A stretch of 64,000 nt of DNA from a virus: IMG/VR virus record IMGVR_UViG_3300047457_000500, positions 59,488 to 123,487 of that record. One strand, 5' to 3'. Positions 29,548 to 59,857 of this stretch are shown one piece after another (position 1 is the stretch's first letter; each line of letters opens with the position of its first letter). Made by a program: the position numbers and the translations under genes. A model generated the notes under the pieces. It ran no database searches, was not told where the DNA came from, and saw only the letters and a list, made by a program, of their open reading frames with translations.

Positions 29548-29621
29548 GGAGCAGTAGCCAAGTTGGTCAAGGCCCCGAACTCATAATTCGGCTATCGTAG
29601 GTTCGAGTCCTACCTGCTCTA
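29548..29621 (+). tRNA. tRNA-Met (anticodon CAT)
   Basis: Acceptor GGAGCAG/CTGCTCT, anticodon stem CCGAA/TTCGG with loop CTCATAA, T-arm GTAGG-TTCGAGT-CCTAC, discriminator A. Not an initiator by its acceptor pairing; a lysidine-type tRNA-Ile is the alternative. No encoded CCA. Confidence 0.85.
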
Positions 29622-29788
29622 CAAGGCTCATCAGGAATTCGACCTCTCGATGAGTACAACTGCCCTGAAACCAGCCTGGTGGTAGTCGTTGGATAACCTG
29701 TGTCGAACAGGCCCAAGCAGACAGCATCTAAGGAGCAGAGCCAGTAGTTATATTCGCCGTAAAAACGGGTAGCGTGACTGGCACCCAA
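29622..29788 (+). ncRNA. Probable structured RNA of unknown class
   Basis: 167 bases between two tRNAs, with several nested stems: CTCATC/GATGAG (29627-29654); CTGC/GCAG (29660-29720) enclosing ACCA/TGGT and the perfect CCTGT-GTCGA-ACAGG hairpin (29697-29711); GCCAGT/ACTGGC (29740-29782) enclosing CCGT-AAAA-ACGG. It has no T-arm and no ORF, and is more GC-rich than its surroundings, as the tRNAs are. Co-transcription with the tRNAs is likely. Confidence 0.55.
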
Positions 29789-29861
29789 GCCCTTGTAGCC
29801 CAGTGGTAGAGGCACACGACTTAAAATCGTGCAAGCGTTGGTTCGAATCCAACCAGGGGTA
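29789..29861 (+). tRNA. tRNA with anticodon TAA (Leu), short variable loop
   Basis: Acceptor GCCCTTG/CAGGGGT, anticodon stem CACGA/TCGTG with loop CTTAAAA, T-arm GTTGG-TTCGAAT-CCAAC, discriminator A as in leucine tRNAs. The variable region is only five bases (CAAGC), whereas bacterial leucine tRNAs normally carry a long variable arm. Confidence 0.8.
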
Positions 29862-29862
29862 C

Positions 29863-29936
29863 GCATCTGTAACTCAGTTGGTTAGAGTACCCGCCTTATA
29901 TGCGGAGAGCCGAAGGTTCAAGTCCTTCCAGATGTA
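29863..29936 (+). tRNA. tRNA-Ile (anticodon TAT)
   Basis: Acceptor GCATCTG/CAGATGT, anticodon loop CTTATAT on a CCGC/GCGG stem, T-arm GAAGG-TTCAAGT-CCTTC, discriminator A. Reads the ATA codon, frequent in these genes. Confidence 0.85.
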
Positions 29937-29940
29937 CCAG

Positions 29941-30012
29941 ACCTCTGTAACTCAGCGGAAGAGTAGCGGACTTCTAATCCGTTTGTCGCAGGTTCGATTC
30001 CTGCCAGGGGTG
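29941..30012 (+). tRNA. tRNA-Arg (anticodon TCT)
   Basis: Acceptor ACCTCTG/CAGGGGT, anticodon stem GCGGA/TCCGT with loop CTTCTAA, T-arm GCAGG-TTCGATT-CCTGC, discriminator G. Reads AGA, the main Arg codon of the accessory genes. Confidence 0.85.
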
Positions 30013-30028
30013 CTACAATTAAGTACTT

Positions 30029-30101
30029 TGGTCTGTAGTTCAGTTGGTAGAACACTCGACTGTTAATCGAGATGTCGCAGGATCGAGACCTGCCAGACCA
30101 G
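30029..30101 (+). tRNA. tRNA-Asn (anticodon GTT)
   Basis: Acceptor TGGTCTG/CAGACCA, anticodon stem CTCGA/TCGAG with loop CTGTTAA, T-stem GCAGG/CCTGC, discriminator G. The T-loop is ATCGAGA, with A at the position normally held by T54. Confidence 0.85.
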
Positions 30102-30105
30102 CCAA

Positions 30106-30179
30106 GGTCCGTTAGTTCAGTTGGTTAGAACGCTACCCTGTCACGGTAGAGGTCGTCGGTTCAAGTCCGATACGGATCG
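30106..30179 (+). tRNA. tRNA-Asp (anticodon GTC)
   Basis: Acceptor GGTCCGT/ACGGATC, anticodon stem CTACC/GGTAG with loop CTGTCAC, T-arm GTCGG-TTCAAGT-CCGAT, discriminator G. Confidence 0.85.
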
Positions 30180-30180
30180 C

Positions 30181-30251
30181 TGGAACATAGTGTAGTGGTA
30201 GCACAACGGATTCCAAACCCGTTAGTGTGGGTTCGATTCCTACTGTTCCTG
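30181..30251 (+). tRNA. tRNA-Trp (anticodon CCA)
   Basis: Loop TTCCAAA on an ACGG/CCGT stem; T-arm with TTCGATT; discriminator G. The first acceptor pair is T-T, a mismatch; the other six pair (GGAACA/TGTTCC). Confidence 0.8.
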
Positions 30252-30255
30252 CAAT

Positions 30256-30327
30256 GGCACTATCGTCTATCGGTTAGGACATCGCCCTTTCACGGCGGAA
30301 AGACGGGTTCGATTCCCGTTAGTGCTG
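30256..30327 (+). tRNA. tRNA-Glu (anticodon TTC)
   Basis: Acceptor GGCACTA/TAGTGCT, anticodon stem CGCC/GGCG with loop CTTTCAC, T-arm GACGG-GTTCGATT-like, discriminator G. Confidence 0.85.
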
Positions 30328-30329
30328 CG

Positions 30330-40236: not shown

Positions 40237-40439
40237 TTTTCTCCCTTTGTGTTAGTTGGATGATCTAATGGAGTTGGAACTGTCATTAAAGCACCACATT
40301 CATTGCATTCCCCGTCTAAAAAATAAATCCCTATTTCATAATCTGAGGGATCAAAAATAACCTTTACTCTTATTACTTTAGAGCCACACATTAAGCAACA
40401 TGACGATGGGATACCACGTAGATTAACCTTGTTCTTCAT
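40233..40439 (-). CDS. Zinc-ribbon protein
   Basis: 68 residues with C-C-x-x-C-G-S and C-x-x-C-G pairs (SSCCLMCGS and ECNECGA) 27 residues apart, a rubredoxin-like zinc ribbon. AAAGGAAAAG precedes the ATG. Overlaps the halogenase gene by 17 bases. Confidence 0.6.
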   Translation of the reverse strand: MKNKVNLRGIPSSCCLMCGSKVIRVKVIFDPSDYEIGIYFLDGECNECGALMTVPTPLDHPTNTKGEK

Positions 40440-41970
40440 AAAACTTTTCCTTTAAAATATGAAAATGTGTTTTAGAGTTATCTACAATACTGTCCCATAC
40501 ATTTTTTGCTTCCTGTCTTTTCTGAAAATATTTTTCCATTTTATTCTTAATGTCAGAATTATTAGCATCAGACATTTTTTCAAGAAGACTTATATATGTT
40601 TTATAAAATGGTCTTATGCCAAACCCTGCCTTGATAGTGTCTACGTTATTATTTGCCCATTCTACATTAGATTTAAAATAATTTTTTGGATATGACTTAG
40701 AGGTAACACTTCTCCAATACTCTGTGTCATTTCTTTGAGACAATGCGTAATGCATTCCTACAAAGTCAAACATTTTTTCTATTCTTGTTTTAGTTTTATA
40801 ATTAAAATTATCAATGTCATACTGTGTTACTGATCCTCTTTCAAGAGCATCTACCAACGTAAAGCAATTTTGATGAGTAAGTAATAAGCCAGTGCTTTCA
40901 AGAGGTTCTAAAAACCCTGCTGCCAAACCTACAGCAACAACATTACCAACCCAAAATCTATCATAGTATCCGTTGTGTATTTTTATATTTTTAAATGTTA
41001 AAGATTTTGATCTTTCTGGATCGTGAACCACCATTTGATCAGAATCTAAGTATTGCTTATACTCCTCAAGAGCATCTTCATCACTTATAAAATCATTACA
41101 GTATACATATCCAGAACCAATTCTATTCCAAAGAGGGATGTTCCAGACCCATCCATTATTAATAGCAGTACAATTAGTAAAGGTTTGTAACTCTTTTTCT
41201 TTATTAGTATATGGAACATGCGCTGTCCATGCCCTGTTGTTAGGCAAAAACTCTGCTGTTGAGATAAACTTTTCATTGATAAACTTACCTAGCAATATAC
41301 TGTTAAATCCAGAACAATCAACAAATAAATCAGCAGTTACTTCTGTGCCATCATCTAAAACTAAAGAATGTATTCCTGAATTGCTTGGGTAAATTTTATT
41401 TACTGTACCCCAAATTCTTTTTACTCCTCGTGGCATAGCATAAAACTCTGCAAGCCAGTTGCCTAATTTAGTAGCATCCATTTGCAATGCCAAATCCCTA
41501 TGCGGTTGGTAAGGATTCATGTCCTCTATATGATCAACCACGATCTTATTTGTTTCTATACTTTTTGCCTGCGGGAAAAAATATCTAACATAATCTTGAT
41601 CTTCAGTTTCTGGGTAAAAAGCCTTTTTATAATACCAATCATCTAAACCAAAACATGTTAACTCTTTATCTAAATTTGGGTGCCCAAATGGATAATAAAA
41701 TGTTTTAGAGTCTTTAGTTTTAAAGTTTGTAAAACCAATTGCAACCTTGTATGAAGCATTTGTATACTTCATAATACTAGAATAATCTAAATCTAAAAAG
41801 TTAAAGAATCCATTTATTTCAAATGTAGTGCTTTCTCCAACACCTATTATAGGAACATCTTTACTTTCAATTAAAACTATTTCTTTTTCAGGATATGCTT
41901 TTATCAAAGCAGATGCTGTCATCCATCCAGCGGACCCTCCGCCAACAATAACTATCTTATCTGTCTTCAT
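40423..41970 (-). CDS. Tryptophan-halogenase-family flavoenzyme
   Basis: 515 residues, the usual family length. IVIVGGGSAGWMTASAL is the FAD-binding G-x-G-x-x-G; GVGESTTFEI follows as in halogenases; NASYKVAIGF holds the Lys (about residue 74) placed like the catalytic K79 of PrnA; GWVWNIPLWNRIG is the diagnostic W-x-W-x-I-P motif. VGLAAGFLEPLESTG is the third conserved block. It should form HOCl or HOBr and halogenate an activated ring. A halogenase of viral origin is known from a cyanophage. Substrate here unknown. Confidence 0.8.
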   Translation of the reverse strand: MKTDKIVIVGGGSAGWMTASALIKAYPEKEIVLIESKDVPIIGVGESTTFEINGFFNFLDLDYSSIMKYTNASYKVAIGFTNFKTKDSKTFYYPFGHPNLDKELTCFGLDDWYYKKAFYPETEDQDYVRYFFPQAKSIETNKIVVDHIEDMNPYQPHRDLALQMDATKLGNWLAEFYAMPRGVKRIWGTVNKIYPSNSGIHSLVLDDGTEVTADLFVDCSGFNSILLGKFINEKFISTAEFLPNNRAWTAHVPYTNKEKELQTFTNCTAINNGWVWNIPLWNRIGSGYVYCNDFISDEDALEEYKQYLDSDQMVVHDPERSKSLTFKNIKIHNGYYDRFWVGNVVAVGLAAGFLEPLESTGLLLTHQNCFTLVDALERGSVTQYDIDNFNYKTKTRIEKMFDFVGMHYALSQRNDTEYWRSVTSKSYPKNYFKSNVEWANNNVDTIKAGFGIRPFYKTYISLLEKMSDANNSDIKNKMEKYFQKRQEAKNVWDSIVDNSKTHFHILKEKFYEEQG

Positions 41971-43050: not shown

Positions 43051-43349
43051 TAAAATAATTCTTCTGGTTGCTTTCTAGCAGTAGTTATTATTGCTTTGGT
43101 CCCTTCCCACCTTACACGACCCTTGCACCCAACATTATATTTTGTATCGCCTTCATATTCTGACGACACTGCATAAGCATATCCATGTAATTCAAAATCA
43201 CTAGCCAAAACTTGGTTTCCATTAATAAAAATTCTCCAAACCATCGGATCGTCTGGCCCAGCCTTTGTATTAAATCTTAATATAATATCATCATATGGCC
43301 TTAACCATCTATCTTTAATTATAGACCAAATATAATTTAATTTATTCAT
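43050..43349 (-). CDS. Small hypothetical protein
   Basis: 99 residues, beta-rich (VWRIFINGNQVLASDFELHG), ending TARKQPEELF. Resembles short phage proteins with a single beta-sandwich. ATGA overlap with the kinase gene upstream. Function unknown. Confidence 0.5.
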   Translation of the reverse strand: MNKLNYIWSIIKDRWLRPYDDIILRFNTKAGPDDPMVWRIFINGNQVLASDFELHGYAYAVSSEYEGDTKYNVGCKGRVRWEGTKAIITTARKQPEELF

Positions 43350-44104
43350 AGTCCCATTTCTTTTCTTTTTTGTGTTGCAGAAATAGACTGTATATTATCA
43401 GGCAATGTTACCTGTTCAATCTTATATCCTACATCACGACCATACACAATGTTTGTAATATTAGGCAATCTTAATACAAGGGTATCCTTAAATGGATTAT
43501 CTTGTTTAATATAATTTTCTACTTCGCTATACTGTAAAGGATCTTTTTCTGATGTCTTGTATGTATTACGGACCCCAACCAGTACCTGATTAGTTCTTTT
43601 ATGTGCTTCTTCTTTTAATGCTTGATGACCCTCATGCCACGGTTGGTAACGTCCAAGTTGCAACGTAGTTGGAGCAGACCAATCAAACAATCCGCCAGCC
43701 TGTATTACAGTATTAACTTCTTGCTCTATTGTGTATCCATCTAATATTCTTAAATCAAAAATCCTAGGCTCTTCCCAAATCTTATTTGTATTTTCAAATC
43801 TGCCTTCTTTAATTCTATCAACCCACACTACTAAATCTGCATCACCAAATGCTTCTCGTGTCTGTTCTGTAGGACAAATAAAGTCAACAATAACTGGTGC
43901 TACATTTTGTTTTGCAATAAGACGTGCCATCTCACCCATGCGTCTTGCTTGCTCAATTCTATCTTCTGGTGTAAAGGAAAGATCAGAATTAACTGTAGAC
44001 CTAACCTCATCAGCATTAAGATGTATAGCGTTTATTCTCTCTTTTAGCGCTACCGCTAGTGCAGTTTTGCCAGATCCAGGAAGCCCAATTATTTGAATTA
44101 TCAT
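43346..44104 (-). CDS. APS-kinase-like / cytidylyltransferase-like fusion
   Basis: 252 residues. Residues 1-135: P-loop GLPGSGKT, LNADEVRSTVNSDLSFTPED and RIEQARRMGEMARL match adenylylsulfate kinase (cysC), followed by VIVDFICPTEQTREAF. Residues 145-252: LQLGRYQPWHEGHQAL carries the H-x-G-H of nucleotidyltransferases and SISATQKR the closing I-S-x-T-x-x-R. It could make PAPS for the two sulfotransferases; the second domain may be an adenylyl- or cytidylyltransferase. TATAAT is exactly 6 nt before the ATG. Confidence 0.7.
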   Translation of the reverse strand: MIIQIIGLPGSGKTALAVALKERINAIHLNADEVRSTVNSDLSFTPEDRIEQARRMGEMARLIAKQNVAPVIVDFICPTEQTREAFGDADLVVWVDRIKEGRFENTNKIWEEPRIFDLRILDGYTIEQEVNTVIQAGGLFDWSAPTTLQLGRYQPWHEGHQALKEEAHKRTNQVLVGVRNTYKTSEKDPLQYSEVENYIKQDNPFKDTLVLRLPNITNIVYGRDVGYKIEQVTLPDNIQSISATQKRKEMGL

Positions 44105-44111
44105 ATATCGA

Positions 44112-44549
44112 TTATATCAGACCAACATAATCGCTACAAATTCCAGCAATAAAGTCTGGTACATTATTTCTGGGATCTTCTAAATATACCAAAATACTTT
44201 TATCTGTTACTGGCATACCAGGGTATGTCCAAATATAATGATTTGTAGTTATTGTATGCTTGTCGCTCTCATGCCAAAATCCTTGATAATATTTTGGCTT
44301 ATTGATTATATAATTTAATGCATCTAGATTTTTACAATGTAGCCATATTTTTTTTACATATGAGTCTATAAAAAATTGATCAATCTGGTACTGAGGATAG
44401 TCGTGGCCAAGATATAGCACATTATCTACTACCCAAAAATCTACCTCAACATTATATCCAGATGATATTGCCTTCTTTATATATTCAGGATTATTTTCTA
44501 GTTCTTTATTTGGACCAAATATATTTCCTCTATGTGATATTTTAATCAT
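44112..44549 (-). CDS. Glycerophosphodiester-phosphodiesterase-like protein (short)
   Basis: 145 residues. KISHRGNIFGPNK has the H-R-G opening; YNVEVDFWVVDNVLYLGHD has E-x-D and the second catalytic His, as in GDPD enzymes. It is about 100 residues shorter than typical GDPD, ending after the middle of the barrel, so it is either a compact variant or a domain acting on a sugar phosphate. 8-base overlap with the RuBisCO-like gene. Confidence 0.6.
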   Translation of the reverse strand: MIKISHRGNIFGPNKELENNPEYIKKAISSGYNVEVDFWVVDNVLYLGHDYPQYQIDQFFIDSYVKKIWLHCKNLDALNYIINKPKYYQGFWHESDKHTITTNHYIWTYPGMPVTDKSILVYLEDPRNNVPDFIAGICSDYVGLI

Positions 44550-45747
44550 TTACAAGGCCCCATTTTTCAATTGCCTTGATATATTCTGACTTATAGTCTC
44601 TATCAATTGCCTGCCTCATAGCCCTAGCACCACCTATAGTGCCTTCAGGATGGCCGTGTACGGCTCCACCAACGTTAGCCATATACTCTGTCCCAAATCG
44701 ACGTGTAATAGCCTCTACAAGCCCAGGGTGCATTCCGCAACTTAGGGCAGGAACAACATTACTATCGTTTAATAGCCTTATAGATCTATCTAGTTCTACT
44801 TCGTCATCGCTTAAATACCCTCCCCACATACCAGTATGTATTGTGTCTACGCCCATCAGAGCAGCAAGTTTACATAAAACGTACCAGTCTATCTTAAAGT
44901 TATGCTGTGAATTGGTTAGTATCTTATCTCCGCTTTTCTGAAAATGCATAAATAATGGTAGATCTAACTTACGTATTGAGTTATAGGCTCCAAATCCACT
45001 CCAAAAGTTTACATGTATTCCATTTCCACCATTTTCATAAACTAACTTTGCTCTATCTAAAATAGCATGTGGGTCAGAGTTTATGCAATGTGCAAAAACT
45101 ACATTCCTGCCAGAATCTGAAATTATTTTTGCAATGTGCTCTACACGTTCTTCTAGTCTACAAAAAGACGGATTAGATAAAATCTCATCTTCTTTTATGA
45201 AATCAACTCCACCATCCACTAACTCTTTAACAATATAACCAAGTTGTTTTACAGATATGCCAGTTTTTGGCTTTACGATTCCGCCAAGCAACGGCTTATT
45301 ATATTGATTAGTAAACTCTCTAATACCAGACATTCCGTATTTTGGTTTTAAGAAACTTCTTTTTACAGACTCAGGAAACTCTATATCAACAACACGACAT
45401 ACTTTAAATATATTAATATCTAATTGACCGCCCATTATTTGACACAATAAATGAGATATACCGTCATTATCCCAATCTGAATTTATTTTTGGAAATCCGA
45501 TTTTTACAAATCCGTTTAATTTTGATTTTAAATTTTCTTCTTCATCATATATAACACAGGAAGACATTTCAAATATGTCGTCTGTTTCCCAGTTGTTTCT
45601 TTGCTTTGGATTGCCAACACTTTGTCCTATTGCTAAATCCCATGCTGCGTCATTAAGTCTTCCATGAACAGAGTTTACCTCAATGTAATAGGTTACAACA
45701 ACACATCTATCCTTTTCTAGGTCATCTAACTCTCTATAAAACTTCAT
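44542..45747 (-). CDS. RuBisCO-like protein (large-subunit family)
   Basis: 401 residues from the ATG after CCAGGAGATAAAT. The RuBisCO N-domain (VVVTYYIEV; DLAIGQSVG) and barrel are recognisable: GGIVKPKTGIS (K175 site), VDFIKEDE (K201, D203, E204 metal ligands all kept), IHTGMWGGYL (H327), LSCGMHPGL (S379/G381) and VGGAVHGHPEGT (G403/G404). The loop-6 Lys (K334) is missing (GGYLSDD), and R295 is replaced near FMHFQKSGD, so CO2 fixation is unlikely; an enolase, isomerase or decarboxylase-type RLP reaction is more likely. It lies between cupin/nucleotidyltransferase and GDPD-like genes. Confidence 0.85.
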   Translation of the reverse strand: MKFYRELDDLEKDRCVVVTYYIEVNSVHGRLNDAAWDLAIGQSVGNPKQRNNWETDDIFEMSSCVIYDEEENLKSKLNGFVKIGFPKINSDWDNDGISHLLCQIMGGQLDINIFKVCRVVDIEFPESVKRSFLKPKYGMSGIREFTNQYNKPLLGGIVKPKTGISVKQLGYIVKELVDGGVDFIKEDEILSNPSFCRLEERVEHIAKIISDSGRNVVFAHCINSDPHAILDRAKLVYENGGNGIHVNFWSGFGAYNSIRKLDLPLFMHFQKSGDKILTNSQHNFKIDWYVLCKLAALMGVDTIHTGMWGGYLSDDEVELDRSIRLLNDSNVVPALSCGMHPGLVEAITRRFGTEYMANVGGAVHGHPEGTIGGARAMRQAIDRDYKSEYIKAIEKWGLVND

Positions 45748-46057
45748 ATTTATCTCCTGGTAGTGATGGAACCTTAACAACTAAAACAGTACAGTCTTCT
45801 AAAAATATAGGATCAGCAATCTCCCCTGGTGTAAAAACAAATACATCTCCAGAGTTAAGTTCTTTATCCTGTATTATCATTTTGCCATTTACTAAAACAT
45901 TATACTCAGTGCCAACCTTGTGATAATGTTTTGGCCAAACCTCTCCAGCCTTATGCCGAAGCAAACCAACTTCAAACTTATCTGTCTTTAGTAAAGATGG
46001 ATCAAAGTTTCCAATTATCCACCCCCTAGTAAAGTCTTCTATTCTTCTGATTTCCAT
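45734..46057 (-). CDS. Cupin-fold protein
   Basis: 107 residues. PKHYHKVGTEYNVLVNGKM gives the H-x-H...E of cupin motif 1 and SGDVFVFTPGE the second motif. Small cupins beside sugar nucleotidyltransferases often act as sugar epimerase- or isomerase-like enzymes. It overlaps the RuBisCO-like gene by 14 bases and the nucleotidyltransferase by 19. Confidence 0.7.
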   Translation of the reverse strand: MEIRRIEDFTRGWIIGNFDPSLLKTDKFEVGLLRHKAGEVWPKHYHKVGTEYNVLVNGKMIIQDKELNSGDVFVFTPGEIADPIFLEDCTVLVVKVPSLPGDKYEVL

Positions 46058-46767
46058 AATTTCTCCATATATAGTTCTAAGTCTGAAGGCACCCCAACAG
46101 CGTTATGCTGATAAGAAGGTATGTGATATATTCCAATTTTTTTGCCATCCATAATCATTGAGTTATAGGTTGGACCAACATAAAACTCATTGTTATACCT
46201 TTCATTATTATAGATCATTCTTGTTGCACTGTCAACAAAATCTTTTCCATGTTTCCAATAATGGATACCATTTAATGATATGTCGCTTATAACTTCTTTT
46301 TCTTTTATCTGTGTTACTAATCCTTGTTTATTAATTTTAGCATAACTGTTTTTATCCGTACTTGATGTGTAAGTAACAATCATTCCATCATATTTAGAGT
46401 TACGGGCAACCTGTAAAAATAAATCAGAATCCCACCACATTATTTGATCTGAGTTAGCAATAATTAACTCATCATCATTGTTTATATAATCTTTGGCAAT
46501 AAGACATGTTTCTGCTGGGCCATTTGTTAATTCATTTATTTTTATAATATTACATGAACTATCTATACTTTTTAATACAGAATATAATTCATCAAAAAAT
46601 ATACTATCTCTTATAACAAAATGATAATTACCTATTATAGATAAAGACTCTATTGCATGCTCTATCATTGTTTTGCCATTTATTTTAATAAGTGGCTTTG
46701 TTGTTTTATAAGTTTCTATAGGAAATCTGCTACCCAGACCCGCCATAGGAATTAATATATTTGTCAT
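46039..46767 (-). CDS. Sugar-1-phosphate nucleotidyltransferase
   Basis: 242 residues. ILIPMAGLGSRFPIETYKTT is the G-x-G-x-R-F signature of the NTP_transferase family, with KPLIKINGKTMIEHAIESL after it; ANSDQIMWWD provides the metal-binding Asp. It would make an NDP-sugar. ATGA-type overlaps tie it to the glycosyltransferase upstream and cupin downstream. Confidence 0.8.
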   Translation of the reverse strand: MTNILIPMAGLGSRFPIETYKTTKPLIKINGKTMIEHAIESLSIIGNYHFVIRDSIFFDELYSVLKSIDSSCNIIKINELTNGPAETCLIAKDYINNDDELIIANSDQIMWWDSDLFLQVARNSKYDGMIVTYTSSTDKNSYAKINKQGLVTQIKEKEVISDISLNGIHYWKHGKDFVDSATRMIYNNERYNNEFYVGPTYNSMIMDGKKIGIYHIPSYQHNAVGVPSDLELYMEKLWKSEE

Positions 46768-47729
46768 AGTGTATTTAGCATCTTTTCTAGTTCGTATTCT
46801 ATTTTACCATATTCTCTAGAAATGTTAGGAACTGATATATATTTTTTATTAGCCCATAAGGTTGCTAACAAGAAAAAATGATAGTGAAATTCTATTTTTT
46901 GTCTAACTATTTGTATGGTGCTTAATTCTATTACTGTTGTTTTATCCCTCATAAATAATAAATTAGTCAACCCAGATCCAGATAATCCAGCAATAACTCC
47001 TACCTGATCAAAAAATCTTATTTGATCTTCAATAGTTTTAAATATACTAGTATCAACTATTTCAAAACCATGTTTTTTAAATAAATTTTCTAGTTTAATC
47101 TCATCATCTATTCTTAGGTCATCTTTATATGGCAGTTTATCTATCTCTTCTTGTGTCATTTGGTTTATTTGTGTGACTGTTAAGTTTTGCTTTCCGCCCC
47201 TTGTAACATAAACCTTTTTATTATTAGGCAAAGATATATCTCTATACGAACTCATAAGATCGTCTAGTATATTAATATGATCTCCACACATTTCTAGTTT
47301 TTCATAATAATAAAAATTTGATAATATAGGAGGATACTTTGCATGTATCTGTGTTACGGAAAATTTAATATTATAATTTCTTAATACTTGAACAATAAAA
47401 GTTCCAGTTGATTGAAATGCAGAAATTTCTTTACTTGGATGCAATAGTATTACCTCTATATTAGGGTCTTTTTTATATTCCCATAATATTGGCGCTAGAG
47501 TATTTAGTAAACTATGAAAAAAATTTGTTTCAAATCTAACTACTATTTTTCTTAATTTAGTTTCTTCTAGGAAGGTATCAGCATACTGTGTTAGTTCCCT
47601 ACGAAACTCTTCATTATGCCAATTTTCTTTTAATATTTCTGTTATTATTGGCTTACCTGCATTAAAGTCATCTTCAATTATACAAATACCCTTATAGTGC
47701 ACTGGCTCTACTGGATGCTGTCTTATCAT
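46764..47729 (-). CDS. Glycosyltransferase, GT61 (DUF563)-like
   Basis: 321 residues. KVYVTRGGKQN and RIDDEIKLENLFKKHGFEIV, then AGLSGSGLTNLLFMRDKTTV, are the DUF563/GT61 blocks (R-x-x-x-N/D-E...G-x-G-L-x-N-x-x-F). N-terminal half is divergent. Paralogue of the next gene. Transfers a sugar to an unknown acceptor. Confidence 0.7.
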   Translation of the reverse strand: MIRQHPVEPVHYKGICIIEDDFNAGKPIITEILKENWHNEEFRRELTQYADTFLEETKLRKIVVRFETNFFHSLLNTLAPILWEYKKDPNIEVILLHPSKEISAFQSTGTFIVQVLRNYNIKFSVTQIHAKYPPILSNFYYYEKLEMCGDHINILDDLMSSYRDISLPNNKKVYVTRGGKQNLTVTQINQMTQEEIDKLPYKDDLRIDDEIKLENLFKKHGFEIVDTSIFKTIEDQIRFFDQVGVIAGLSGSGLTNLLFMRDKTTVIELSTIQIVRQKIEFHYHFFLLATLWANKKYISVPNISREYGKIEYELEKMLNTL

Positions 47730-48649
47730 AAATAATTTAAAAATCCTTTGTTTTTAAAGTATTCTATTATTGTATCAGATTTTCTTTCATGTGGTATAGT
47801 AATATATATATGTTTTTTAGCCCAACAAAAGGCAGCATAAAATGGATGTACCTGCTGCTTGGCAGAAACTACTACTGGCGTCTGTAGTTCTATTACTACC
47901 CCACCTGGCTGCATAAAAATCATATTTGCCATTCCTGATCCAGAAGGACAAATCATAACCCTTACATTATTTAAAAACTTAACCTGCTCTCCAAAATTTT
48001 TAAAATCTTCTGGGTATACTATTTCTACATTATTTTCTATAAAAAATTCAATAAGTTTGTCTTCATCCTCAACCCTTAAATCATTTTTTACAACTAAGGT
48101 ATCTCTATCTCTGTCATGAAAAATAGATCCCTCTTCTTTGGGCTTTACTTTTGATCTAGCCAAATAAATAATCTTATCTGGTTTTTTAGACCTATCAATA
48201 AACCCGCTGCAATAATCGTATACATCATCAACAAAAGAAGATTGAAACGGAACTGTATGAAAATATTTTGCATCTTTTACTTTTACAGTCTCATCTTTTA
48301 TATTAACTAGGCGGTATCTAACCTTTTTATTAGTTAACATATTAAGTATAAATTTAGAATGAGGAATTTGCAAATCTCCATCGTGAACATCTATTCCTAA
48401 TATTATTAAAAAATAAGCATTTTTGTTTTTATTAAAGAAAAATAAAATATAAGAGACCATATTAAAAAATGCATGTAAGAAATTTTTGTGCCACAAAACT
48501 ATATGAACATCATCTTCTTGGATTAAGTCCTCAATGTCAAGATCATCTAACCTTGTTATTGTGGGGCCAAAATCTTCTTTTTTAGTTCTAGATAGTAGGT
48601 TAACACCTTCTAAAACCTTTGGCTCAATGAAGTCTCCGTATACAAACAT
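47726..48649 (-). CDS. Glycosyltransferase, GT61 (DUF563)-like
   Basis: 307 residues. IIYLARSKVKPKEEG, RVEDEDKLIEFFIENNVEIV and CPSGSGMANMIFMQPGGVVI repeat the block order of its neighbour. First gene of the glycan operon; overlaps its neighbour by 4 bases. Two such enzymes suggest a two-sugar extension. Confidence 0.7.
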   Translation of the reverse strand: MFVYGDFIEPKVLEGVNLLSRTKKEDFGPTITRLDDLDIEDLIQEDDVHIVLWHKNFLHAFFNMVSYILFFFNKNKNAYFLIILGIDVHDGDLQIPHSKFILNMLTNKKVRYRLVNIKDETVKVKDAKYFHTVPFQSSFVDDVYDYCSGFIDRSKKPDKIIYLARSKVKPKEEGSIFHDRDRDTLVVKNDLRVEDEDKLIEFFIENNVEIVYPEDFKNFGEQVKFLNNVRVMICPSGSGMANMIFMQPGGVVIELQTPVVVSAKQQVHPFYAAFCWAKKHIYITIPHERKSDTIIEYFKNKGFLNYL

Positions 48650-48650
48650 G

Positions 48651-48935
48651 TTATTTCTCGTTGGTCAAACTAACCCAAAGATTGCTCCAGTCTTTTTCAT
48701 CTTTATGATTATTAAACTCTTTAGATATTTCTCCACCCTCTAAATAAACTCCGCCCCATACTCCCCATTCTTTTTGAGAGACGCCCACAGAAAAGCAAGT
48801 TTTCATTACTGGGCATCTGGTGCACAATTCATCTATTGCGCTTCTAAAGTTTTCTGATTCTTCGTATTTATCAAAAAATAAATTAGTATCATAATCTAAA
48901 CATGACCCATTATCTTTCCACTTTAATTTATGCAT
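48651..48935 (-). CDS. WhiB-family iron-sulfur regulator
   Basis: 94 residues. Four Cys at 12, 38, 41 and 47 (C-x25-C-x2-C-x5-C) followed by EWGVWGGVYL, the G-V/I-W-G-G turn of WhiB proteins. These bind a 4Fe-4S cluster and act with the main sigma factor; they are confined to actinobacteria and their phages. It lies just before the glycan operon on the same strand, 1 base from its first gene, and may control it. Confidence 0.85.
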   Translation of the reverse strand: MHKLKWKDNGSCLDYDTNLFFDKYEESENFRSAIDELCTRCPVMKTCFSVGVSQKEWGVWGGVYLEGGEISKEFNNHKDEKDWSNLWVSLTNEK

Positions 48936-51238: not shown

Positions 51239-51934
51239 TTATACCACCTCCACGATATTAGGAAGTACTACTATATCTGCGTTTGGAATATCCTTTAATA
51301 TCATAGATTTGACCTGAGCAATAGATAGTTTATCCTCATCTGACATTCCCATACAGTGTCTTATTCCTATAACAACATTTCTAGTTTTAGATAGTTCGTT
51401 ATATTTTTCTAAATCCGAATCTGTCCATGGCTGAAACTTGCCAACCATTAGTGTTTGCTCTGGCTTCCAGTCAAATGTCTCATATTTTTTAATAACACTA
51501 AATGCTCTAGTTGGTAGTGCATCAAGATATTCATTGCCAGTATTAGTTATTCTAAGGTCGTACTCATTTTCTTCTGGCTCTTCCCATGAAATAACTTTAC
51601 CAAATTTATCTGTAAATTCTTTTTTATCTGTAGTATCTATCCAAACTGAAATGTCTGGAAACTTTGCGGTATCAGATAAATGCATATATCCACTAATATC
51701 TCTGAATTGATCACGTGCCTCTTTTGTTGGAAAATATCCACTAACCACTATAGATGAGTTATAATCCTTTGTAAAGAAAATTGATATGGTCCTCAACCAT
51801 CGAGCATACTGAGCCTGTAATTCCGCCATTGGCAAATCTGTATCCAATACATGCCACGAGTTAGTTCTTTCTGCATAGGCTATAGATACATCAGTTCTTG
51901 TCTTTTCGTCCATTCCAAAAAATTGAACAATCAT
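51239..51934 (-). CDS. Degenerate paralogue of the APS-kinase/nucleotidyltransferase fusion
   Basis: 231 residues with the same domain order as the gene at 43346, but the P-loop is lost (FFGMDEKTRTDV in place of GLPGSGKT) and the H-x-G-H has become WTDSD in LMVGKFQPWTDSD. FQPW, VVIGIRHCM and IVVLPNIVEVV still align with the parent, and the closing I-S-x-T-x-x-R segment is missing. The frame is intact, so it is probably a pseudoenzyme with a binding or regulatory job. Confidence 0.6.
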   Translation of the reverse strand: MIVQFFGMDEKTRTDVSIAYAERTNSWHVLDTDLPMAELQAQYARWLRTISIFFTKDYNSSIVVSGYFPTKEARDQFRDISGYMHLSDTAKFPDISVWIDTTDKKEFTDKFGKVISWEEPEENEYDLRITNTGNEYLDALPTRAFSVIKKYETFDWKPEQTLMVGKFQPWTDSDLEKYNELSKTRNVVIGIRHCMGMSDEDKLSIAQVKSMILKDIPNADIVVLPNIVEVV

Positions 51935-52722: not shown

Positions 52723-53448
52723 TCATTTTGATTGAGAGATTACAAGTGTATAATAAGAATAAAACATAAGAATATTAGTTTTCCATCCATTTATTATATC
52801 AAAATGAAATGGAAATTTTCTATGTTTTTCTAAAATTTCTTTCATTTCTTTGCTCTTGCCCCTCAATATTTTTTGTGTCGGCTTACTTATATCACAACAA
52901 ACCGCTAAATCTCTGTCTGGAAAAACTGTTGCAATGTCATCAATGTACTTATCCAAAAATGGAATACAAATAAAAATAATAGGACAATCTAAAGATTTTA
53001 TATTATTTAAAAAATTTAAAGTATTATCTTGTGGGATCCTTCCTGCAAAATAAAATTCTCCCCTATTTCCTTCAAAACCAGAAAAAAACAATGCTTGCAA
53101 AACCGAGTTTGGTCCAGGAATGAGGTCTATATCTATTCCCATTCTAATTAAGTTGTGTAATAATTCAATACCAGAGTCTTGTATTGTGGGATAGCCGTCA
53201 TTTGAAACTACAAGAATATTTTTATCTTCCTTCAATCCATTAAGTATTACTTCCAATATTTGCTTAATATTATCCTTAGTTTCGTATATTTGTGAAATAT
53301 TTGCACCATTTTCCAAACAAAATTTTTTAAATACTTTTTCAGTTTCAACTATTGCTATATCAGTTATCTTTAGGTACTCCTGTAATGCAATAGCAATATG
53401 AGAGTTGTCGCCTATTGGGGTGGCTGCAAATACAACCTTTTTTGTCAT
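52723..53448 (-). CDS. RsmI-like tetrapyrrole-methylase-fold protein (copy 3 of 3, divergent)
   Basis: 241 residues. VVFAATPIGDNSHIAIAL keeps the P-I-G motif with D in place of N, VVSNDGYPTIQDSGIELL is a changed D-E-G-x-P motif (N-D-G-Y-P), and IDLIPGPNSVLQALFFSG keeps P-G-P. SAM binding is plausible but target specificity likely differs. ATGA overlap with the carbamoyltransferase gene links it to tailoring rather than rRNA methylation. Confidence 0.65.
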   Translation of the reverse strand: MTKKVVFAATPIGDNSHIAIALQEYLKITDIAIVETEKVFKKFCLENGANISQIYETKDNIKQILEVILNGLKEDKNILVVSNDGYPTIQDSGIELLHNLIRMGIDIDLIPGPNSVLQALFFSGFEGNRGEFYFAGRIPQDNTLNFLNNIKSLDCPIIFICIPFLDKYIDDIATVFPDRDLAVCCDISKPTQKILRGKSKEMKEILEKHRKFPFHFDIINGWKTNILMFYSYYTLVISQSK

Positions 53449-54881
53449 CTAACTATCCTTGTGTTATATGTATTTTCCCAATTAACTATATCTGTTTCGT
53501 CATTAAGCAATGGTTGCCCTTTGATATTTAAACTAGTATTTAGTAATACTGGAACTCCAGTAAGCGTATACCAATTAGATAGTACAGCATATAAACCAGG
53601 ATGTTGCTTTTCATTTACTGTTTGAACTCTGGATGTTCCGTCTTTATGAACTACTGATGGAATCTTTTCAGGCTGTAAACATTTAACCGCATACTGCATA
53701 TACGGAGAAGTAAACTTCATATCAAACCATTTGCTTGCATGCTCCTCCATAACTACTGGTGCAAAGGGTCTAAATAGTTCCCTCTTCTTGATTAAATTAA
53801 CTTTATCTTTAATGTTAGGGTCTCTTGGATCTGCCAAAATTGATCTATTACCCAAAGCCCTTGGACCATATTCAGCCTTTCCAGTTGCTACTGCTGCTAC
53901 CTTGTTTCTAATTAATTCGGTAATTATTTCTGTTACTGGATACTCTCCGCCTAAATCATATCCAAGATATGGGGTTTGCCAATTTATATGATTACCGTAT
54001 GCAGCGGCTGCTGCACCAAGTGATGAACCAGCATCGCCTGGGTTTGGCATAATCCACACATTATCAAACATTCTCCAAAGCATAGTATTGGCAGAACAAT
54101 TTAGGGCACACCCACCCATAAACACAAGATTTTTTTCTCCAGTAAGTTTTTGTGCCATTGCCATAAAATTAACAAGTCTATCTTCGTATACTCTTTGTAC
54201 TGCTGCAGCAATGTCAAACTTATCCTGTTGTGATATCTCTATTCCCCAATCTAAAATTCCATTATGAAAAGCATACTTTTGTTCATGTATGTTTGGAAAA
54301 TATTCTTTTACTTTTATATAATACTTTGTCCAGTCACCGTAGGCAGCCATACCCATAAAAATATATTCTTCTTCGTTTGGTTTTAGTCCAACTAACTGAG
54401 TAAATGCTGAATAAAACAAACCGAAACTTAGTGGATAGTTTTGTTTATAAACTTGCCTAATGTTTGATCCATTACCAACCCAAACTGTTGAGGTATTATA
54501 TTCTCCGATTGCATCTAAAACAACTATGACTGCATTTTGAAAATTACTTGTGTAATAACCTGCTGCTGCATGAGAATAGTGATGGCTAAATGACTCTCTT
54601 GGAATCCATCTTAAATCTTTACGATCTAAATAATACGGCTTCCCCCCACCAAAACCACCACGAGTTGATATTCTTAATTTCTTTAACCACCTATTTTCAT
54701 AGTAAGCAACCCTATCTGGTTTACCAAACTGTAGAGCATAATCAATAATGCTATCATTATTAAACCAGTCATTTTTTTGTTTGCTAAATCTTTCTGCGTG
54801 TCCAGCAAACAGTATCTCACCATCCTCTATTAAAGAAATAGAGGCGTCATGTGTTGTTTCATTTATTCCAAGAATTTTCAT
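53445..54881 (-). CDS. O-carbamoyltransferase, NodU/CmcH family
   Basis: 478 residues from the ATG after AAGGACAGAT. MKILGINETTHDASISLI and SHHYSHAAAGYYTS carry the metal-binding His residues of the Kae1-like domain; MGGCALNCSANTML follows; EYGPRALGNRSILADPRD and ELFRPFAPVV belong to the C-terminal YrdC-like domain. The family makes carbamoyl-adenylate and carbamoylates sugars or antibiotics. About 80 residues shorter than many members. Overlaps the SGNH gene and the RsmI-like gene. Confidence 0.8.
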   Translation of the reverse strand: MKILGINETTHDASISLIEDGEILFAGHAERFSKQKNDWFNNDSIIDYALQFGKPDRVAYYENRWLKKLRISTRGGFGGGKPYYLDRKDLRWIPRESFSHHYSHAAAGYYTSNFQNAVIVVLDAIGEYNTSTVWVGNGSNIRQVYKQNYPLSFGLFYSAFTQLVGLKPNEEEYIFMGMAAYGDWTKYYIKVKEYFPNIHEQKYAFHNGILDWGIEISQQDKFDIAAAVQRVYEDRLVNFMAMAQKLTGEKNLVFMGGCALNCSANTMLWRMFDNVWIMPNPGDAGSSLGAAAAAYGNHINWQTPYLGYDLGGEYPVTEIITELIRNKVAAVATGKAEYGPRALGNRSILADPRDPNIKDKVNLIKKRELFRPFAPVVMEEHASKWFDMKFTSPYMQYAVKCLQPEKIPSVVHKDGTSRVQTVNEKQHPGLYAVLSNWYTLTGVPVLLNTSLNIKGQPLLNDETDIVNWENTYNTRIVR

Positions 54882-55548
54882 ATCTGTCCTTAAATTGATT
54901 ATACCAGAACTGATGAATACTTTTTCCAGGGTGATGGTTGTCATCTCCGTGCAGGCTATCGCCATAGTATTCTATCTTATCAAAATCTGGAGACCTAAAC
55001 GTTTTAAACTGTTCAAGCATTTGATAATTTTTTTTATCTGCCCAAGAAGTAGATAAAAGAGTTATATTGTTTTTCTTACAATAATTTTCTAATATATAAT
55101 AATTATTATATATAAAATTATTTATAAAATCTTTTTTAATGTATCTAGATTCCCTATGTATTGGCGGTAGTAAAATAAAAATATAATTTGGCACCCCGTA
55201 AGACTCAACATACTTTATGGTATTAATAATAATTTCTATTATAGATCCGCCTGGTAAAGATATGTTAAAAAAGCCAGAGGTATTTTTAAAATCAGAATAT
55301 ACATTATATGCCCATGTATCTTCTATGTTTACCCCTATGCCAGCAGTTATAGAACATCCATTAAATAATATATGGGTTTTGCCTGTATGATCTTTTATTA
55401 ATTCATCACACCTAAGCCCCTTAGAATTTAATTTATAGACTATATCATTTTTGTCAATATGTTTTTTATAATCTGGCATGCCATCTTTATGCCAAAAGAT
55501 TGGCGCTATATCTGGATTGTCTAGTAAATAATTTTCATAAAATCGCAT
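54859..55548 (-). CDS. SGNH-hydrolase-like protein (family copy 5 of 5)
   Basis: 229 residues from the ATG in a TAATG overlap with the oxygenase stop; a longer reading lies in that gene. ILFNGCSITAGIGVN, FILLPPIHRESRY and HGDDNHHPGKSIH match the family blocks. It is the shortest copy. Position between an oxygenase and a carbamoyltransferase supports a role in one modification pathway. Confidence 0.55.
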   Translation of the reverse strand: MRFYENYLLDNPDIAPIFWHKDGMPDYKKHIDKNDIVYKLNSKGLRCDELIKDHTGKTHILFNGCSITAGIGVNIEDTWAYNVYSDFKNTSGFFNISLPGGSIIEIIINTIKYVESYGVPNYIFILLPPIHRESRYIKKDFINNFIYNNYYILENYCKKNNITLLSTSWADKKNYQMLEQFKTFRSPDFDKIEYYGDSLHGDDNHHPGKSIHQFWYNQFKDRYENSWNK

Positions 55549-59184: not shown

Positions 59185-59857
59185 AAAACTCCTTAACTCT
59201 CTCTATTAACATTATATCAGTTGTTTGAACCTCAATATCAAACATTGGGGATTGCTTTCTTATTTTGCCAAATTCTTCATCGGACATGTGCGGTCCTAAA
59301 TTCTTAAAATGAAAATGAACGAAAGGAGGCTCTACTTCCGTTGTATTTATTGGTATATTGTTAAACCTCATAGACTCTTCATAAATATAAAATGGGCTGT
59401 CCTTTGGTTGTTTAAATGTTACATCTACATTATAATCAATAACCCAAGGCACATAAAATCTATAGATACCGTCAAAACAGTCAGGTGGCAAACTGTACTC
59501 TTTGTTAGAACTATAATATTGTCGTATCCAGGGTCTGTCTATGTTATAAAATTGCCCACTTCTTCTATAATGATCGATCAATAAAAACATTTCGGCATGA
59601 TTTCCCTGCCTAAGTATAAATCCATTATCATTAATAGAAACTAGGCTGGGTGGGGGATATAGCGTAGCAACATAATGATTTATTGGCTTTAATATAGAGT
59701 TCTTAAATAATTCATTTTCTTTTACTGGGATATAAGAAAGCCATCTTTTATAAGGGACTGCTATTTTATTTATATATAAAAAACTTTCAGATTTTGAGTT
59801 TTCCCAAAGATCCCAGTCCTTCTTAAACTCAGTAAGCATCTCATCGTGCTGGCTCAA
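59150..59857 (-). CDS. Hypothetical protein
   Basis: 235 residues. Aromatic-rich (YFRSTN-like loops are absent); FYVPWVIDYNVDVTFKQ and PPFVHFHFKNLGPHMSDEEF are notable. Overlaps the downstream paralogue by 35 bases. It may work with the two conserved phage proteins; no family recognised. Confidence 0.5.
   Translation of the reverse strand: MSQHDEMLTEFKKDWDLWENSKSESFLYINKIAVPYKRWLSYIPVKENELFKNSILKPINHYVATLYPPPSLVSINDNGFILRQGNHAEMFLLIDHYRRSGQFYNIDRPWIRQYYSSNKEYSLPPDCFDGIYRFYVPWVIDYNVDVTFKQPKDSPFYIYEESMRFNNIPINTTEVEPPFVHFHFKNLGPHMSDEEFGKIRKQSPMFDIEVQTTDIMLIERVKEFYEFTKDKILPV

Follow-up and report, generated by a model that had tools for sequence, protein, structure and literature searches.

A form IV RuBisCO-like protein clade encoded beside a sugar nucleotidyltransferase in phages, bacteria and archaea

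RuBisCO-like proteins (RLPs) are a standard example of how new chemistry evolves from a single active site, and a function is known for only a few of their branches. To our knowledge, RuBisCO-superfamily members of known chemistry use free phosphorylated ketoses as substrates. In RuBisCO mutants without K334, enolization is possible and carboxylation is lost. The MtnW (YkrW) enolase (2oek/2zvi) functions in methionine salvage; it has the RuBisCO fold without K334, its residue at position 123 is Lys instead of Asn, and K177, R295 and H327 are missing. The OiaX/NonPhoto RLPs (3nwr) are linked to sugar-acid metabolism and retain K334, H294 and R295. IV-GOS is reportedly the Tabita group of ocean sequences. 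The groups IV-GOS, IV-AMC and IV-Aful and the RLP oxygenase of the hamamelose pathway are given in a review (PMC10173188). Literature searches on viral or phage RuBisCO, on RLPs with glycan genes and on IV-GOS yielded nothing on the RLP clade described below.

The window, that is, the whole stretch of 64,000 nucleotides that was analysed, covers positions 59,488 to 123,487 of the viral record IMGVR_UViG_3300047457_000500, which has 123,487 bases. Genes for a tape measure, a portal, a head protein, DNA polymerase, a UvsX-like recombinase and ribonucleotide reductase were recognised in the record with PHROGs, and therefore it belongs to a tailed phage. The T4-like capsid and terminase Pfam models had no match in the record, in which head, portal and tail genes were found by PHROGs. 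The genes of the locus are the following.

43346..44104, minus strand: P-loop kinase (APS-kinase-like) with a cytidylyltransferase-like domain (PF01583 8e-16, PF01467 1e-3; phrog_10255)
44112..44549, minus strand: compact GDPD-like protein, 145 aa (near-invariant residues, weak GDPD profile and fold matches, AF2 model)
44542..45747, minus strand: RLP, 401 aa, of a clade set apart in the tree (PF00016 3e-42, PF02788 1.5e-4; AF2 model, PDB fold, tree)
45734..46057, minus strand: small cupin, 107 aa (weak Cupin_7 match, 2.8e-5; phrog_24762; alignment, same order in relatives)
46039..46767, minus strand: NTPT, a GT-A type nucleotidyltransferase, 242 aa (PF00483 2e-7; phrog_3980; PDB 4evw 4e-33)
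46764..47729, minus strand: GT61-family glycosyltransferase (PF04577 1.7e-14)
47726..48649, minus strand: GT61-family glycosyltransferase, paralogue of the 46764..47729 gene (PF04577 1e-14)

Seven genes follow one another on the minus strand in the order WhiB, GT61, GT61, NTPT, cupin, RLP and GDPD-like. From the first GT61 gene through the GDPD-like gene, neighbouring genes overlap by 4-19 bp throughout, which suggests one translationally coupled operon. Its core is an overlapping block of four genes (NTPT, cupin, RLP and GDPD-like), in which the RLP gene shares 14 bp at its start with the cupin gene and 8 bp at its stop with the GDPD-like gene. The kinase/cytidylyltransferase-like gene lies downstream of this block and was retained in only some close relatives.

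The open reading frame at 44542-45747, with its ATG start codon at 45747, had been proposed to encode an RLP in the first-pass annotation, which was made from the sequence alone, and both the HMM search and the structure prediction suggested there agreed with this proposal. PF00016 (RuBisCO_large) matched at 3.1e-42 (145 bits versus a cutoff of 30) and PF02788 (RuBisCO_large_N) at 1.5e-4 (22.4 bits versus a cutoff of 20.7). The AF2 model was confident (pLDDT 94.3) and, among PDB folds, came closest to form III RuBisCOs (8dht, 2cwx/2d69, 3a12), with a TM of 0.87 and approximately 27% identity; MtnW and the Burkholderia RLP 3nwr ranked lower. The phage protein, which passes both domain cutoffs and has the RuBisCO fold, thus belongs to the RuBisCO large-chain superfamily. 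Considering that dN/dS was 0.03-0.07, which indicates strong purifying selection, the match was not due to chance.

A homologue was found in none of 50,697 phage records, and a viral structure library searched with the RLP model yielded no RuBisCO fold but only partial matches with a query TM of at most 0.40. The protein therefore adds a virus-borne enzyme to the RuBisCO superfamily. In IMG/VR, 264 stretches matched it, of which the best 80 were taken. Cellular relatives were found at 23 bacterial and archaeal loci (one genome per species) in SAR11, Legionella, Azospirillum, Bacteroidota, Patescibacteria, Elusimicrobia, Verrucomicrobiia and DPANN archaea, and some of the SAR11 copies lay on long contigs amid housekeeping genes. 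The gene was present in 4 of 22 genomes of the Legionella group and in 2 of 247 genomes of one SAR11 group; this patchy distribution fits horizontal transfer. Plasmid matches were to OiaX-type and other RuBisCO-family proteins at approximately 30% identity.

A maximum likelihood tree (LG+C20, 51 rows, 200 bootstrap trees) covered MtnW, the 3qfw-type RLPs, OiaX/NonPhoto and RuBisCO forms I and III beside the phage RLP and its relatives. The phage RLP and its relatives formed one clade (100/100 branch, 200 of 200 bootstrap trees), and MtnW, the 3qfw-type RLPs, OiaX/NonPhoto and RuBisCO formed separate groups at 100/99-100. The clade was split from RuBisCO forms I and III at 100/100, form II being absent from the tree. 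The tree check first suggested for the phage RLP thus placed it in none of the included RLP clades with known chemistry, neither in MtnW nor in OiaX. The family profile scored 103 bits on the IV-Photo RLPs (1ykw/2qyg) and 168 bits on form III, a comparison by profile scores only, IV-Photo being absent from the tree. From its sequence, the phage RLP is thus placed in a form IV RLP clade for which no assigned function was found and which is set apart from the groups in the tree, a set that excludes IV-GOS, IV-AMC, IV-Aful, IV-Photo and the hamamelose RLP. Like IV-GOS, the clade has environmental, ocean-sampled members, and the two are possibly the same clade.

The active site was surveyed in 47 diverse clade members, and the numbering of the 401-aa phage RLP was mapped to that of RuBisCO. 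K185/D187/E188, which correspond to the lysine that is carbamylated and the metal ligands of RuBisCO (K201/D203/E204), were invariant in 47/47 members, and K159 (K175), K161 (K177), S336 (S379) and G360 (G403) were likewise invariant. In RuBisCO numbering, G381 was also invariant and G404 nearly so. Among the groups compared, K177 was otherwise kept only in true RuBisCO. The full RuBisCO catalytic set was absent: in all 47 members, K334 was replaced by Tyr (Y311), H294 by Gln (Q270), E60 by Gly (G41) and N123 by Gly (G107), and T65 and W66 were also replaced in all of them, by N46 and P47. Position 295 was Lys (K271) in 42/47 members and position 298 was Asp (D274) in 41/47, whereas H327 (H304 in the phage RLP) was kept in 40/47 and replaced by Gln in 7/47. 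The retained metal ligands (VDFIKEDE), the lysine at the K175 site, S379, the C-terminal glycine loop and the missing loop-6 lysine had all been read correctly from the single sequence in the first-pass annotation. Its claim of a retained H327 is true of the phage protein but not of the whole clade, and R295, which it had considered absent, is not simply lost but in most members exchanged for Lys. The replacements at E60, T65, W66, N123, H294 and H298 went unmentioned there.

Judging by these residues, the clade has kept all of the predicted machinery for proton abstraction and has lost that for handling CO2. Because K175, K177, K201, D203 and E204 are kept and E60, T65, W66, N123, H294 and K334 are replaced, enolization is plausible and carboxylation is not. 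The presence of a second phosphate site is uncertain because of the Lys at position 295 and the Asp at position 298. Compared with form III RuBisCO, the RLP shares the fold and the K175/K177/K201/D203/E204/S379/G403 set but differs in the six replaced positions, among them the loop-6 lysine, and in its gene neighbours.

The neighbours of the RLP gene were scored by six-frame HMM searches, as the ORF-based table missed genes in GC-rich loci. From a total of 105 loci, which include the best 80 of the 264 IMG/VR matches, 81 were testable, having 2.5 kb or more of flank to either side. A sugar nucleotidyltransferase was encoded beside the RLP, in a putative nucleotide-sugar module, in all 81: NTPT lay within 3 kb in 81/81 loci, within 1.5 kb in 79/81 and on the strand of the RLP gene in 80/81. 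It was absent from 5 of the 105 loci, all five of which were cut by contig ends. Many viral loci are related, so that the 81 counts are not independent events, and it is the spread over several phyla that carries weight. The cupin and the GDPD-like protein were each encoded no more than 3 kb from the RLP in 65/81 loci, and the order NTPT-cupin-RLP-GDPD was retained in a phage at 54% identity. At 34 RuBisCO or RLP loci from outside the clade, none of these three partner genes (NTPT, cupin, GDPD-like) lay within 1.5 kb. NTPT was also absent beside 10/10 RuBisCO loci from the Patescibacteria group, yet it was present at every clade locus. OiaX/NonPhoto loci were likewise without NTPT. The cupin was missing from most SAR11 and all Legionella loci, and it is therefore not essential to the RLP step. 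In Legionella, RLP and NTPT adjoined LicD in 4/4 genomes. The established role of LicD enzymes is the transfer of phospho-alcohols, with CDP derivatives as donors, and LicD at the Legionella RLP loci may do the same.

The glycan-type context proposed in the first-pass annotation is thus far stronger than could be seen from one locus, with NTPT at every testable locus across several phyla. Of the neighbours named there, the sugar nucleotidyltransferase (NTP_transferase, 2e-7) and the two GT61-like enzymes (PF04577 twice, 1e-14) were upheld, and no Calvin-cycle or nucleoside-pathway partner was seen. The structure nearest to NTPT, PDB 4evw (4e-33 with the family profile), is titled just 'nucleoside-diphosphate-sugar pyrophosphorylase'. 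The cupin was recovered as a Cupin_7 match, albeit a weak one (2.8e-5); its residues H44 and E51 were invariant in the alignment, and its profile found only weak, unspecific cupins in the PDB. The GDPD-like protein, modelled by AF2 with a pLDDT of 95, had no Pfam match. Its catalytic-type residues H, R, E, N, E, D and H (HRGN..EN..E.D..GHD) were invariant or nearly so, and its weak fold and profile matches were mostly GDPDs, so that this part of the earlier description stands as a weak family assignment.

In cultured cyanophages, an NTPT of the same family occurs without RLP. The Bellamy protein carries a fused LacAB_rpiB domain (4e-32; L106:5992-7149), and its gene precedes one for the same cupin; that of S-SKS1 is fused to DHBP_synthase (5e-65; L107:5998-7425). 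NTPT is fused to a HAD phosphatase in S-CAM9 and DSL-LC03, with a GDPD-like gene nearby, and stands alongside class II aldolase, HAD and GDPD-like genes in S-SM2. The clusters of Bellamy, S-SKS1, S-CAM9 and S-SM2 resemble the phage RLP locus in their NTPT family, cupin and/or GDPD-like genes and glycosyltransferases but have RpiB, DHBP synthase, HAD or class II aldolase where the RLP stands. RpiB and DHBP synthase (RibB) act on ribulose-5-phosphate, and by analogy the RLP slot therefore seems to be the place of ketose-phosphate enzymes. The fusions of NTPT with RibB and RpiB suggest that unusual activated sugars are made from ribulose-5-phosphate. Because RpiB-like and DHBP-synthase domains are fused to this NTPT family, the substrate class of the RLP would most likely be a ketopentose phosphate of the ribulose-5-phosphate type; a substrate class shared with the fusions is an analogy, since the cyanophages that bear them are without RLP.

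Taken together, these findings suggest, with a probability of roughly 0.6, that the RLP works in a nucleotide-sugar or nucleotide-polyol pathway, and not in CO2 fixation or methionine salvage, as a non-carboxylating enolase or isomerase for putative glycan decoration. Because the clade adjoins a sugar-activating enzyme throughout, whether in viruses, bacteria or archaea, its probable role is to reshape a sugar phosphate for cell-surface decoration rather than to fix carbon. With K185/D187/E188 in place, and likewise K159 and K161 for proton transfer, Mg2+ and carbamylated K185 would enolize a phosphorylated ketose. As the residues that handle CO2 have been replaced (K334 by Tyr, H294 by Gln, E60 and N123 by Gly), the enediolate would then be reprotonated elsewhere to give an isomer or epimer, and a related rearrangement is possible. 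Where present, the small cupin may isomerize or epimerize the same sugar and could be a second isomerase. As its family suggests, NTPT would join the sugar phosphate with an NTP to form an NDP-sugar, which the adjacent GT61 enzymes, or LicD in Legionella, would pass to a glycan; the GDPD-like protein could trim a phosphodiester. The phage thereby probably changes the host surface or its own glycans. The chances seem about even that the reaction is new to the superfamily (isomerization, epimerization, branching or chain-shortening of a ketose phosphate or NDP-ketose), that it leads to an unknown activated sugar and that it is common to phages, SAR11, Legionella and DPANN, with phages altering surface glycans by it. 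The first-pass idea of a new RLP reaction on an activated sugar or sugar phosphate is supported in general terms, the reaction itself being a proposal drawn from the replaced residues and the partner genes.

The gene neighbourhood leaves the order of the steps free, and the RLP could act after activation, for example in the isomerization or chain change of an NDP-ketose made by NTPT. The obligate pairing with NTPT fits either order, and the phosphate sites are partly rebuilt (T65N, W66P, R295K, H298D), so that something other than a simple bisphosphate may be bound. Action after NTPT is nevertheless unlikely, given that both the superfamily members of known chemistry and the RpiB and RibB enzymes, whose domains were observed in the cyanophage fusions, are generally known to use free sugar phosphates. 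It is quite unlikely that an RLP of known chemistry, either MtnW or a sugar-acid enzyme of the OiaX or hamamelose type, was moved into the phage. Sugar-acid enzymes do exist among RLPs, as the hamamelose-pathway RLP oxygenase demonstrates (PMC10173188), and the NCBIfam models of MtnW and OiaX matched the phage protein with 157 and 145 bits, a second MtnW model giving 134. However, these scores were far under the curated cutoffs (409 and 513 bits for MtnW, 700 for OiaX), the MtnW and OiaX clades excluded the RLP at 100/100, and the residues differ, with K334, H294 and R295 retained in OiaX and K177 and H327 missing from MtnW. Moreover, the loci that were read showed no further recognisable genes of the mtn, apionate or tetronate pathways.

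That the phage uses the protein as a true RuBisCO, to carboxylate a bisphosphate, is very improbable. Form III was the best NCBIfam match and the nearest fold, and K175, K177, K201, D203 and E204 are all retained, but the score of 204 bits compares with a cutoff of 497, K334, H294, E60 and N123 are replaced in every member, and the partners expected of a Calvin-cycle or nucleoside pathway were not seen. Methionine salvage, OiaX identity and true RuBisCO identity were each rejected on the basis of model cutoffs, tree and residues. Since several active-site residues differ from those of RuBisCO, the RLP might also be a non-catalytic remnant or a structural partner of NTPT; this has very little probability, because the metal and lysine set is invariant (47/47) and the gene is under strong purifying selection. 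Sugar activation for glycan decoration thus remains the preferred reading. The clade is a large, testable branch of form IV tied to sugar activation and carried by many phages, and its obligate NTPT almost names the pathway. If the reaction is found, a surface sugar so far unknown would probably come to light in SAR11 and in freshwater and marine bacteria infected by phages.

Some further genes were observed at the clade loci and in the window. Six SAR11 loci (L090-L093, L096, L097) encoded a second NTPT-like protein of approximately 245 aa between the GDPD-like gene and the RLP, and the one copy tested had no Pfam match. At about eight viral loci (L011, L012, L025, L026, L030, L035, L037, L044), a dehydroquinate-synthase-like sugar phosphate cyclase, an SDR and a kinase-like gene followed the RLP. 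In the window, the operon is headed by a WhiB-family gene (48651-48935), which hints at an actinobacterial host. The kinase fusion at 43346-44104 and a shorter gene at 51239-51934 have a common C-terminal motif, 'GKFQPW/GRYQPW'. A tryptophan-halogenase family protein is encoded at 40423-41970 (PF04820 3e-101), and another protein whose FAD-binding start is similar was found at L177:15715-17217. The window also encodes a tetrapyrrole methylase-family domain (52723-53448; PF00590, 5e-13; the family includes RsmI) and a Nol-like carbamoyltransferase (53445-54965; phrog_1601), and eight tRNA genes are clustered at 29548-30328.
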